A DNA stretch of 20,140 nt from a virus, in IMG/VR virus record IMGVR_UViG_3300036045_000070, positions 1 through 20,140 of that record; one strand, written 5' to 3'. Under the pieces are notes generated by a model. That model saw only the letters and a list, made by a program, of their open reading frames with translations. It made no database searches and was not told where the DNA came from. Shown one piece after another: positions 14,951-18,123 of this stretch. Each line of letters opens with the position of its first letter. Within the stretch, counting starts at the first letter, position 1. Position numbers and translations under genes: made by a program.

Positions 14951-15711
14951 CAGCCGATCCACCGCACGGGCTGGCCGCCGAACATCATCGGTTCCTCGGA
15001 CGTGGATTTCTTCGCGTACTGCCCGCGCTCCTTCGCGTTGCGGACCCAGGTACGCCAGACCGCAGGCCAGTCGGACCGCGCGGTCTTGAACTCCCAATCG
15101 CGAAACTTGGCGATCTCGACCTCGACGTCCATGTCAGGGACGTGAGCGGATGCGAACTCGCGGTCTGGGGAAAACTCCGCTGGCACTCGGCGCGAGGCTT
15201 TGCGAGCGCCTCTCTCTCTGGGTTTCTTACTCTTGTCTGTGTCTGTGTCTGTGTCTGTGTCTGAGGGCCGGACGCGGCTGGACATCGCTGGACGCGGCTG
15301 GACATCGCTGGACATCGCCGGACTGTTCATTGCGCGCTGCTGGCGCTTCCGCTCTGCATCCCGTCCGCTGGCTGTGAACTCGGCCTGTTGCGCCTGTTTG
15401 CGGGCTTTTTCGCGGTATTTGCCGTGATTGACCACGATCCAGCCGAATCCACGATTCGGGATCGGGATCAGTCGGCGTCCCTCATCGTTCACGGAGCGGC
15501 TATGCGGATCGGGTTCACAGAGCCGCTGGATCGCTTCCCCGACTTCGTCGGCCGGTATCCCAGCGACACTCGCGATGTAGGACGGATGGCAGTCCACCTC
15601 GCCGTGCCGGTTGGCGAGCCCGAGCATCACCATCCACACGTACAGGTCGGGGAACTTGCCGCAGAGCGACCCTTGAAACAGGCTGGAAAAGAGCGGCGTG
15701 TATCCACTCAC
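14950..15711 (-). CDS. O-like phage replication initiator/loader
   Basis: The 253-residue protein begins MSGYTPLFSSLFQGSLCG, with an N-terminal winged-helix-like domain ('DLYVWMVMLGLANRHGEVD', then 'PSYIASVAGIPADEVGEAI') as in lambda-O-type and DnaD-type phage proteins. Residues about 100-165 form a charged linker with a repeated PAMSS(D/R)V motif and a (Asp-Thr)4-Asp run. The C-terminal domain (180-250) contains 'DWPAVWRTWVRNAKERG', a DnaT-like motif that may contact DNA or helicase. It precedes primase and helicase genes, as O does P. Its gene holds tandem repeats that could be its own binding sites. ATG at 15711 overlaps the RHH stop (ATGA). Confidence 0.8.
   Translation of the reverse strand: MSGYTPLFSSLFQGSLCGKFPDLYVWMVMLGLANRHGEVDCHPSYIASVAGIPADEVGEAIQRLCEPDPHSRSVNDEGRRLIPIPNRGFGWIVVNHGKYREKARKQAQQAEFTASGRDAERKRQQRAMNSPAMSSDVQPRPAMSSRVRPSDTDTDTDTDKSKKPRERGARKASRRVPAEFSPDREFASAHVPDMDVEVEIAKFRDWEFKTARSDWPAVWRTWVRNAKERGQYAKKSTSEEPMMFGGQPVRWIG
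15235..15263. repeat. GTCTGT hexamer microsatellite (4.8 copies)
   Basis: Four full GTCTGT units and a fifth lacking one base lie inside the O-like gene. On the coding strand they give alternating Asp and Thr. The six-base unit can expand or shrink without frameshift, so linker length may vary. Confidence 0.92.
15271..15320. repeat. Five tandem 10-bp repeats, candidate origin iterons
   Basis: Five head-to-tail units follow the form gac(gcg/atc)gc(t/c)g: GACGCGGCTG, GACATCGCTG, GACGCGGCTG, GACATCGCTG, GACATCGCCG. The 10-bp period is close to one helical turn, and the array lies within the linker of the O-like replication gene, where lambda keeps its iterons. Ten is not a multiple of three, so simple protein repetition does not explain it. 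No clear AT-rich melting region adjoins it, which weakens the origin reading. Confidence 0.6.
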
Positions 15712-15956
15712 CGCCGCCCGCTCCGCGCAGCTCCGTCATCTTCCGTGTCATCACCGAACAACTCCGGCTGCATTCCGCTTGCGGCCGCACGCTTGGCGTA
15801 GATTATGTAAGCTCGATGTTCGCGCCTCGCAAAGCTCGTCAGCACCTCGCGCGCTACGGTCTGCATGTCGGTGCCCTCCGCGATCGCACGCGCTTCGAGC
15901 GCGGCGTGGACGCCGTCTGGGATGCCAAGGCGGAAGTCCCGAAGCGGGATGCTCAT
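15708..15956 (-). CDS. Ribbon-helix-helix (Arc/CopG-like) DNA-binding protein
   Basis: The 82-residue product starts MSIPLRDFRLGIPDGVHAAL. An N-terminal beta strand (DFRLGIP) is followed by two helices ('VHAALEARAIAEGTD' and 'MQTVAREVLTSFARRE'), the Arc/CopG pattern in which the strand reads DNA as a dimer. A second basic helix (AYIIYAKRAA) and an acidic tail (GDDTEDD) follow. Position between cro and the O-like gene, with ATGA overlaps at both ends, suggests an early regulator analogous to CII or Arc by place, though not by family. Target sites are unknown. Confidence 0.78.
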   Translation of the reverse strand: MSIPLRDFRLGIPDGVHAALEARAIAEGTDMQTVAREVLTSFARREHRAYIIYAKRAAASGMQPELFGDDTEDDGAARSGRR

Positions 15957-16177
15957 GCCGCTGGTTTCGCTTGGTCAGCGATGTCCAGCGCGCGGGCGAG
16001 GCTCGGGTACAAGGCTCGGTCCACGCGCAGCGTGCGAGCCGTCATGATCTCAAGCGCGAGCGCCGATTCGATCGGCACGACCGCGCCCCACTTCGACACG
16101 GCGGCCGGACTGATGCCAAGGACCGTGGCTACCGATGACTTGGTGCGAAAGTGCGAAATCGCGTCAGCAGTCAACAT
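15953..16177 (-). CDS. cro: Cro-like repressor
   Basis: The 74-residue protein begins MLTADAISHFRTKSSVATVL and shows a short HTH 'SVATVLGISPAAVSKWG' (about 15-31) followed by 'VPIESALALEIMTARTLRVD', the layout of the DNA-binding Cro family (PF14549-type). It is divergent from the CI-like gene and heads the leftward early operon. No Shine-Dalgarno precedes the ATG, and a possible -10 TAACAT ends 9 bases before it, so the transcript may be leaderless. It would compete with CI at the shared sites at 16190-16239. Function follows from family and position. Confidence 0.87.
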   Translation of the reverse strand: MLTADAISHFRTKSSVATVLGISPAAVSKWGAVVPIESALALEIMTARTLRVDRALYPSLARALDIADQAKPAA

Positions 16178-16252
16178 AGTGCAACGATGTTAACTGTAGT
16201 TACCGGTCGACTGCAACTGCGAGAAACTCAACCAGAGTTAATCTTGGGTCTT
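16178..16252. promoter_or_regulatory. Divergent cI/cro operator-promoter region
   Basis: Two copies of the core TYAAC-N3-AGTT lie here: TTAACTGTAGTT (16190-16201) and TCAACCAGAGTT (16228-16239), each centred on AAC-N4-GTT dyads. The first overlaps a possible cro -10 (TAACAT on minus, plus 16187-16192); the second overlaps a possible cI -10 (GTTAAT, 16237-16242). The region is visibly less GC-rich than its flanks. Promoter -35 boxes are weak. Confidence 0.78.
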
Positions 16253-16675
16253 ATGTCGACACTGGCGAGTCGATTGCAGGACGCGATGGCCTACGCGAAG
16301 ATCACGCGGCCGCAGCTCATCGCGGGGATTCGTCGTCAGAACGTGAAAGTGTCCGCGCCCGCCGTATCCAAGTGGTTTTCCACGACAACGGAACTCAAGG
16401 CCGTGCATGCGTTCGCGGCGGCACGCGTGTGTCGCGTCGACCCCGAGTGGCTGGCGATGGGCGTAGGCACAATGCAGCGTCACGACGGCAATCCCGAGAA
16501 GCTGCCCGCACGTCGACTCGCGCTGATTCAAGCCTACGGATCGCTTCCCGATGACGTACGTGCGCCGATTCGTGCGTTGATCGAAACGTTGGCGACCGCG
16601 CACTCGAAGAGCTATCGCGAGTGGAGTGAGCGCGAGGGTGAGCGCGCCAGGAAGCGCGATCGGGAATTGGCGTAG
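16253..16675 (+). CDS. CI-like repressor, HTH only, no peptidase domain
   Basis: The 140-residue protein begins MSTLASRLQDAMAYAKITRP. An HTH lies at about residues 17-45 ('QLIAGIRRQNVKVSAPAVSKW'), followed by 'RVDPEWLAMGVG' (61-72), a typical ending of phage CI N-terminal domains. The remaining 65 residues are helical and charged, with no S24 peptidase, cleavage Ala-Gly pair or Ser/Lys dyad. RecA-stimulated self-cleavage is therefore unlikely, and induction would need an antirepressor or Cro competition. ATG at 16253 has no ribosome site but a possible -10 ending 10 bases upstream, so the mRNA may be leaderless. An open frame extends upstream to 16151 but overlaps cro. Confidence 0.83.
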   Translation: MSTLASRLQDAMAYAKITRPQLIAGIRRQNVKVSAPAVSKWFSTTTELKAVHAFAAARVCRVDPEWLAMGVGTMQRHDGNPEKLPARRLALIQAYGSLPDDVRAPIRALIETLATAHSKSYREWSEREGERARKRDRELA

Positions 16676-16713
16676 TCAAGCCAATGACGGCAACCAAGAA
16701 AGAGAAAGCGCGC

Positions 16714-16971
16714 ATGAAACGAACTTCGTGGTTTGCGGCAACATGCCTGTCCATCGTCTCACTGGCAGCAGACAGTTACGTGATCGAAGCAGCTGTCAAC
16801 GACGAGAAATTTGTGATCAATGGCGAATTGTTTGTGGCACACACGTACTGCTTCGGTTGGGATGAAGGCGACGAGGTCATGTTTCTTGATGGCAGTCCAT
16901 ACGGGGCGTGCGCAACTGCCACGCTCTACAACAAGCGCAAAAAAAACACCTGCAAAGTCTGGTGCGAATAG
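16714..16971 (+). CDS. Small secreted Cys-rich protein (likely moron)
   Basis: I take ATG 16714 (85 residues); a same-frame ATG at 16684 would add ten Lys-rich residues. The start MKRTSWFAATCLSIVSLAA is a signal peptide with cleavage after about residue 19 (alternatively after EAA, 27). The mature part, about 60 residues, is acidic, with 'YCFGWDEGDEVMF' and 'GSPYGACATATLYN' and four Cys (46, 66, 80, 84), enough for two disulfides. Export to the periplasm or beyond is likely. Base composition is clearly less GC-rich than the flanking genes, and the gene sits alone between cI and the rightward operon, typical of a lysogenic-conversion moron. The target is unknown. Confidence 0.75.
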   Translation: MKRTSWFAATCLSIVSLAADSYVIEAAVNDEKFVINGELFVAHTYCFGWDEGDEVMFLDGSPYGACATATLYNKRKKNTCKVWCE

Positions 16972-16996
16972 CCGCCTGATCACCATTTGACGTAAC

Positions 16997-17025
16997 GCGT
17001 CACGCGGTGACATTGCGCGTCACGC
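16997..17025. repeat. GCGTCACGC direct repeats and GTCAC-GCG-GTGAC palindrome
   Basis: GCGTCACGC occurs at 16997-17005 and 17017-17025, spaced 20 bases centre to centre (about two turns). The first copy is part of the perfect palindrome GTCACGCGGTGAC (16999-17011). They lie just upstream of the promoter with CI/Cro-type sites, so they may bind a second regulator. Confidence 0.6.
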
Positions 17026-17026
17026 A

Positions 17027-17065
17027 TTAACCACAGTTGACTCCGTGTGGTAACTGTGGTTAACT
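17027..17065 (+). promoter_or_regulatory. Rightward early promoter with two operator copies
   Basis: TTGACT (17037-17042) and TTAACT (17060-17065), 17 bases apart, form a plausible sigma-70 promoter. Two copies of the switch operator core lie on it: TTAACCACAGTT (17027-17038) and its exact inverse AACTGTGGTTAA (17052-17063), overlapping the -35 and the -10. This gives a 12-bp perfect inverted repeat around a 13-base spacer. The CI/Cro pair is therefore expected to control this operon too. Confidence 0.75.
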
Positions 17066-17092: not shown

Positions 17093-17383
17093 ATGCAACT
17101 CCCCGACGCTTTCGCTCTCACGGCCCCGCCCGGCGCATACACAGCCTCGCGGCACGGCGATTACGACTGGACCGGTCTCATCGACGGGGTCCACGTCGAG
17201 GCCTCCTACAATGTCCTGCGCGACCCGTACGACCGCACGCTCGAGATCGAGCTCATCACCCTCACCGTCGGCGGCGTGGACGTGATGGCGTGGGACGTGG
17301 TCGCCGAGGACGCGATCGAGCGCATCGAGGAGGAGTACGTCGAGGACGCGCCGGATTACGACCCCACGGGAGAGTACGCATGA
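17093..17383 (+). CDS. Hypothetical early protein (96 aa)
   Basis: The first gene of the rightward operon has three candidate starts (17072, 17081, 17093). I choose ATG 17093 because GGAG lies 8 bases before it and the protein then opens MQLPDAFALTAPPGAYTASR. The sequence has strand-like 'RTLEIELITLTVGGVDVMAW' and a very acidic C-terminus (EEEYVEDAPDYD). I do not recognise a family, and see no motif beyond the acidic tail, which could bind proteins or mimic nucleic acid. It overlaps the next gene by ATGA (17380-17383), so the two are coupled. Confidence 0.68.
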   Translation: MQLPDAFALTAPPGAYTASRHGDYDWTGLIDGVHVEASYNVLRDPYDRTLEIELITLTVGGVDVMAWDVVAEDAIERIEEEYVEDAPDYDPTGEYA

Positions 17384-18123
17384 GCGGCGCGACCAGCTTC
17401 GCGGACCGACTCGTTGAGGTCGAGGCGCGACCGCTGTTGCAGGGCCAGCACCTCACCCGGCTAGAGCGCGCCCAGAAAGCGTGGTGCGCGATGGAAGCCG
17501 TCGCGTACCTCGCCGGCGAGCGGTGGTCCGACTCACCGCAGTGCGCGTGCCCCGTCATCGCGTCCTTCATGCGCGCGTGGAACGACGGACTGCTGACAGA
17601 CGAGGACCGCAATCGGCTGCTCAAGCCGCTGGTGCCGCTCGTCGTCGGGACACGCGCCGACACCGCTACCGAAGAGCGGCGCGCATTCATGGCGATGGAC
17701 TGGCTCATCCGTGTGCACACCCCGGCGTGGCTGGACCGTGTCGAGGCGCTGAAACCGCACGCACAGGCGTTGCGCGATCTTGAGACGATCGCGGATGCAG
17801 CCGGGCTGGTGGCGGCCACCGGCCGACTGCGCGTCGCGCAGAAGGACGCGGCCGCCGCGAGGGCCGCCGCGAGTGATGCCGCGTGGGACGCCGCGAGCGA
17901 TGCCGCGTGGGACGCCGCGAGGGCCGCCGCGATGGATGCCGCGAGGGCCGCCGCAAGTGATGCCGCGAGGGCCGCCGCGAGGGATGCCGCGTGGTACGCC
18001 GCGTGGTACGCCGCGAGGGCCGCCGCGAGGGCCGCCGCGAGGGGCGCTCTCAGGCCGACGACCGAGTGGCTACAGAGCAGCGCGCAGCAACTGGTGCGCG
18101 ATATGTGTGCGGTGCGCGCATGA
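17380..18123 (+). CDS. Early protein with Ala-rich (x-x-A-A) repeat helix
   Basis: The 247-residue protein has a globular N-terminus (1-155), starting MSGATSFADRLVEVEARPLL and including 'WCAMEAVAYLAGERW' and 'PLVPLVVGTRADTATEERRAF', that I recognise only as a phage early-gene type. Residues 161-220 are fifteen tetrapeptides of form [R/S/W/M][A/D/Y]AA, encoded by 12-bp units, forming a long helix with Trp, Tyr, Asp and Arg on regular faces. Similar DAAWDAA arrays occur in many phage proteins of unknown role. The tail (221-247) is Gln/Arg-rich. ATGA overlaps link it to both neighbours. No catalytic motif is seen. Confidence 0.75.
   Translation: MSGATSFADRLVEVEARPLLQGQHLTRLERAQKAWCAMEAVAYLAGERWSDSPQCACPVIASFMRAWNDGLLTDEDRNRLLKPLVPLVVGTRADTATEERRAFMAMDWLIRVHTPAWLDRVEALKPHAQALRDLETIADAAGLVAATGRLRVAQKDAAAARAAASDAAWDAASDAAWDAARAAAMDAARAAASDAARAAARDAAWYAAWYAARAAARAAARGALRPTTEWLQSSAQQLVRDMCAVRA
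17860..18039 (+). repeat. Fifteen 12-bp coding repeats
   Basis: Fifteen head-to-tail units resemble NGG-GNC-GCC-GCG (for example AGGGCCGCCGCG, AGTGATGCCGCG, TGGTACGCCGCG). The unit is a multiple of three, so copy number can change without breaking the frame. The TGGTACGCCGCG pair and the AGGGCCGCCGCG pair are identical adjacent copies, which suggests recent slippage. Confidence 0.92.

Follow-up and report, generated by a model that had tools for sequence, protein, structure and literature searches.

The window analysed here, a 20-kb virus fragment of 20,140 bases for which all motif counts below are valid, in all likelihood contains the immunity region of a temperate phage, consisting of a Cro protein of the P22/DicC type, a short DicA-like repressor and four dyads that would serve as OR and OL. 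Judged from their sequence, these dyads are very probably the common operators of CI and Cro in an OR/OL switch. A sequence-only reading of this DNA had proposed that one operator family is common to cI, cro and the opposite early promoter, and our analysis strongly supports that proposal: it is very probable because of the homology to P22 Cro, the 5-N4-5 geometry of the sites, a rule linking a recognition-helix lysine to a half-site cytosine, and the matching layout of the two candidate promoters.

Gene layout of the probable switch region

The protein-coding features that bear on the switch are the following.

15953-16177, minus strand: cro, Cro-like lytic repressor of the P22_Cro family, 74 aa, recognition helix ISPAAVSKW
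16253-16675, plus strand: CI-like prophage repressor, 140 aa, HTH N-terminus (VSAPAVSKW), assigned by PHROG matches and CI alignment
16714-16971, plus strand: accessory gene, an ORF for a small putative secreted Cys-containing protein, alternative start at 16684
17093-17383, plus strand: first gene of the rightward early operon, GGAG upstream of the ATG at 17093

The Cro assignment is based on matches to Pfam PF14549 (P22_Cro; E=6.2e-17, 61.6 bits, above the curated cut-off of 30.2) and PHROG 409 (E=4.9e-14), and on sequence similarity to the solved structure of P22 Cro, 1RZS (phmmer, E=4e-10). The CI-like repressor matched PHROG 2328 (E=1.6e-7) and PHROG 4 (E=5.5e-7) and reached only E=0.15 against Pfam HTH_3, its homology being weak outside the HTH; its N-terminal 70 residues align with the CI proteins of phi297, HK639, AsXd-1 and YP3. 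No Pfam match to a C-terminal peptidase or oligomerisation domain was found in its 140 residues, and the ORF downstream is unrelated. Compared with all the aligned CI proteins, its HTH carries a 5-residue insertion ahead of the recognition helix.

Leftward from OR the gene order is cro, a ribbon-helix-helix protein, a replication-initiator-like protein and a DnaB-like helicase; rightward it is the CI-like repressor, the small accessory gene, the OL pair and an early operon extending as far as an exonuclease gene. The product of 17093-17383 had no family match in Pfam or PHROG. The gene after cro (15711-15956), in the usual place of cII, encodes the ribbon-helix-helix protein, which resembles FitA (E=2.5e-4) and the Arc-like PHROG 6506 (E=1.3e-4) and was not recognised as CII. 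The 20-kb contig yielded no recognisable integrase, CII or N. Searches with exact peptide words among viral contigs revealed no near relatives of CI, Cro or the helicase, comparison of the region with known phages at the DNA level detected no similarity, and an alignment of eight distant Cro members was too divergent to serve as a search query.

Four dyads in two intergenic clusters

The core pattern TYAACNNNAGTT is matched exactly at four places, and no more, in the 20,140 bases of the contig. All four are intergenic and fall into two groups; the reversed control pattern has no match. All four positions given in the sequence-only reading, including the inverted fourth copy, proved exact, and the random copies elsewhere that it had named as refuting its claim are absent from the contig. 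Each core together with two further bases makes up a dyad of 14 bp that deviates from TTAAC-N4-GTTAA at one of the ten half-site positions:

16190-16203, no strand: operator 1 (OR), TTAACTGTAGTTAC, covering the putative -10 of PR, 9/10 dyad match
16228-16241, no strand: operator 2 (OR), TCAACCAGAGTTAA, adjoining the cI start, 9/10 dyad match
17027-17040, no strand: operator 3 (OL), TTAACCACAGTTGA, overlapping the putative -35 of the PL-equivalent
17050-17063, no strand: operator 4 (OL), GTAACTGTGGTTAA, overlapping the putative -10 of the PL-equivalent

Brought to a common orientation, operators 1 to 4 read GTAACTACAGTTAA, TCAACCAGAGTTAA, TTAACCACAGTTGA and TTAACCACAGTTAC. The OR pair, with centres 38 bp apart, lies between cro and the divergent CI-like gene; the OL pair, with centres 23 bp apart, lies about 0.8 kb away, ahead of the opposite early operon. 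No third OR or OL site was found at two or fewer mismatches, and a 3-mismatch dyad candidate at 16180-16193 overlaps operator 1.

Being AT-rich and lying in the intergenic DNA of a GC-rich genome, the motif might match in some places by chance. We give this explanation a negligible probability: dinucleotide shuffles of the window contained on average 0.01 such dyads and at most one, against the four observed, and a dyad search of the two intergenic stretches, in which the 5-mer half-site was left free and the spacer could range over 2-8, scored 36 against a maximum of 19 in 400 shuffles, none of which attained even three quarters of that score. In 38 terminase-related contigs the motif was sparse (10 places in 8 records) and marked no shared operator, as expected if every phage has its own operator sequence.

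Candidate promoters

A sigma-70 consensus scan of the switch stretch found no promoter, and the -35 and -10 boxes were therefore assigned by analogy:

16189-16217, minus strand: putative PR (cro promoter), TTGCAG-N17-TTAACA, recognised by eye, PL-like layout
17037-17065, plus strand: putative PL-equivalent early promoter, TTGACT-N17-TTAACT, recognised in the sequence, PR-like layout

The two share one layout, TTG-N10-GTAACT-N3-GTTAAC. Along the cro strand, 7 bases separate TTGCAG from GTAACTACAGTTAA, after which comes CA; on the opposite side, 7 bases separate TTGACT from GTAACTGTGGTTAA, after which comes CT. This agreement would be hard to explain unless both were early promoters repressed alike, with an operator over the -10. 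The sequence-only reading had placed the operators on promoter boxes: the sites do lie where it put them, but the boxes are weak and match the sigma-70 consensus poorly. Its "rightward" promoter would, by analogy, be the counterpart of lambda PL, with PR running leftward in this contig. Transcription starts implied by the putative boxes would leave the cro mRNA almost leaderless and cI with little leader; no Shine-Dalgarno sequence is visible before either gene.

Operators and recognition helices across the P22-Cro family

We compared the cI/cro intergenic regions of P22, 21, Eho59, yong1, phi297, HK639, Piluca, BUCT709, phiES15, dicA/dicC and others. A mechanical scan of these for repeated dyads recovers TTAAG-N4-CTTAA in P22 and in 21, whose operators are annotated, and gives the half-sites ATAAG for phi297, ATAAC for HK639, TTAAC for phiES15, TAAAG for Piluca and TTAGA for BUCT709 and dic. 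Over 44 distinct loci, a 4-base spacer scored best of all spacers from 0 to 10. The window conforms to this pattern of repeated 5-bp half-sites around a 4-bp centre, with two 9/10 sites in its cI/cro intergenic region, and beyond cI, ahead of the other early operon, it also has the OL cluster; OR and OL clusters separated by genes are likewise seen in P22, 21, HK639, phi297 and Piluca. Most related regions have three OR sites with spacings clustering at 23-26 bp, whereas the window has two sites 38 bp apart.

The Cro recognition helix reads GISPAAVSKW in the window and GISDAAVSQW in P22, and the residue scored was the one before Trp. The scored loci had two sources, phage records and scans of genomes and viral contigs. 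Where Cro has Lys or Arg there, the half-site ends in C in 10 of 10 loci, the window included, as against 1 of 33 with any other residue (Fisher p = 6e-9, this and similar p-values being inflated by the relatedness of the loci). For CI the corresponding counts are 8/8 with Lys and 1/28 with other residues. Mapped on a Cro tree, the C label changes about eight times, and well-supported branches make at least three of these changes unavoidable; common ancestry by itself therefore does not account for the correlation. Supported branches by themselves provide three independent pairs in favour of the rule, which is not significant in a test that uses one label for residue and base and thus counts independent contrasts only.

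The window's Cro and CI alike carry the Lys, in near-identical AVSKW recognition helices, and the half-sites have C in 4/4 of the OR pair, the OL pair being the same by sequence. This combination is the best evidence here that Cro and CI read the same sites. Other helix residues also seem to track bases: among L154, L155, L110, L115 and L150, Met occurs with GTAAA half-sites and Ala or Val with TTAGA/TTAGG, pairings that hint at a wider recognition rule. The correlation of Lys/Arg with C and of Gln with G, over about 45 Cro loci, gives a simple means of predicting operators in prophages that lack annotation. In spirit it builds on the recognition-helix correlations of Hall et al. 2005 (cited in PMC4997575) and extends them. 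A phage switch from uncultivated DNA becomes readable down to the base that the repressor lysine probably contacts.

The accessory gene and other repeats

The accessory protein has a signal-like N-terminus and several Cys, and Pfam, PHROG and phage searches returned no family or phage match. Its sole relative found, 63% identical over 62 residues, is encoded in the viral contig IMGVR_UViG_3300005254_000003 (L265), where it sits among ORFs resembling bacterial PEP-CTERM genes. The sequence-only reading had a moron between the halves of the circuit, and a gene is indeed present there; since this is the usual position for accessory immunity-region genes such as rexAB and sieB, the position is not in itself notable. 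Between cI and OL, yong1 has rexAB and HK639 several ORFs, and in P22 sieB lies further along the same operon side.

Just upstream of OL, at 16988-17025, an 18-nt repeat occurs twice, as TGACGTAACGCGTCACGC and TGACATTGCGCGTCACGC, exactly 20 bp apart. The first copy contains a perfect TGACG-N5-CGTCA dyad, and the identity of the two copies, 15/18, exceeds that in all 300 shuffles (maximum 14). A second regulator of the early promoter might bind at these repeats, and the ribbon-helix-helix protein of 15711-15956 could be that regulator. Inside the replication-initiator-like gene, at 15234-15323, five copies of TGTCTG precede 10/20-bp repeats, GGACGCGGCTGGACATCGCT, in a position comparable to that of the origin iterons within lambda gene O. 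At 17853-18047, a 12-bp tandem repeat of about 16 copies encodes an Ala-rich stretch of the AARDAAWDAAS type in a protein that matches PHROG 8332.

Proposed switch and alternative explanations

From these features we infer how binding, repression at the candidate promoters, lysogeny and induction might be organised. In the prophage, CI dimers on all four sites would shut PR, which leads into cro and then the replication genes, and PL, which leads into the operon of recombination genes; Cro would take over these sites upon induction, and its binding next to the cI start would hold cI silent. Cooperativity of the lambda type and cleavage stimulated by RecA depend on the C-terminal domain of CI. 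Since the CI-like protein has no recognisable peptidase domain, induction would probably proceed through an antirepressor or spontaneous loss and not through RecA-driven self-cleavage. We entertain tentatively, and with more doubt than confidence, the further idea that this is a stripped-down CI/Cro switch, with just two operators at each promoter, OR sites spaced by 38 bp, cro and cI messages that are almost leaderless, and a repressor lacking an oligomerisation or cleavage domain. If so, it would have to attain bistability without lambda-style cooperativity or SOS cleavage. Its two-site, short-repressor layout offers a convenient minimal system for asking how few parts bistability requires.

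The four sites might not be truly shared, with only Cro or only CI using all of them or each preferring a different subset. The two OR sites differ in their centres, PY54 Cro reportedly occupies a single operator site (PMC4488713), and in 933W, which lacks OL3, the repressor binds non-cooperatively (PMC3317979). Against this stand the near-identical helices described above, in which both proteins carry the Lys that tracks the half-site C, and we consider separate use of the sites unlikely. Still less credible, at a very low probability, is that the pair at 17027-17063 is an RNA hairpin, acting as a terminator or attenuator of the cI transcript, in place of two operators. Between its two 12-nt arms complementarity is complete, and the fold has z = -3.8, but there is no U tract and no terminator match, each arm is itself a dyad of the OR-site family, the OR pair forms no unusual hairpin (z = -0.6), and the arms lie on a putative promoter with a 23-bp centre spacing typical of P22-type operators. 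The hairpin reading of the OL pair was rejected on these grounds.

Comparison with known systems

As in lambda, the common-operator switch that we favour would have two antagonistic repressors sharing operators at two early promoters, with cI between OR and OL and accessory genes after cI. Lambda differs in having a Cro of a different fold class, 17-bp operators with three sites per side, a cleavable and cooperative CI, and both CII and N. To call the window a complete lambda-like circuit, as had been done, is therefore too strong: it has two sites per side against three and an OR spacing of 38 bp against 23-26, its 140-aa CI is without a peptidase domain, CII and N were not found, and its promoters are poor.

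P22 and phage 21 are closer, sharing the Cro family, the 5-N4-5 dyad, the divergent cI/cro arrangement and a second operator cluster beyond cI. Points of difference are the P22 half-site, TTAAG, which goes with a helix Gln; three OR sites at spacings of 25 and 23 bp; a 216-aa repressor; a Shine-Dalgarno sequence before cro; and a clear TATAAT. HK639 has an AAC half-site as well (ATAAC-N4-GTTAT); its Cro and CI both carry Lys ahead of Trp/Met, and genes separate its OR and OL clusters. It differs by three sites per side, a 229-aa CI with a C-terminal region, and an annotated cII.

Of the well-studied systems, DicA/DicC of the Qin prophage is the closest parallel. Like BUCT709 and phiES15, it combines a repressor of 128-140 aa without a peptidase with a divergent partner of the P22_Cro type, and like the window it has operators on both sides of the repressor gene; the DicA operators, by contrast, are of the TTAGA/G type, and three of them lie 25-26 bp apart between dicA and dicC. 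DicA and DicC form a CI/Cro-like bistable switch with operators flanking dicA, and the antirepressor Rem relieves DicA repression (PMC10448788). With the precedent of 933W, fewer sites and the lack of cooperativity are already known, and the locus described here is a useful but unsurprising addition, with minor variations, to the known switches of the P22-Cro type.
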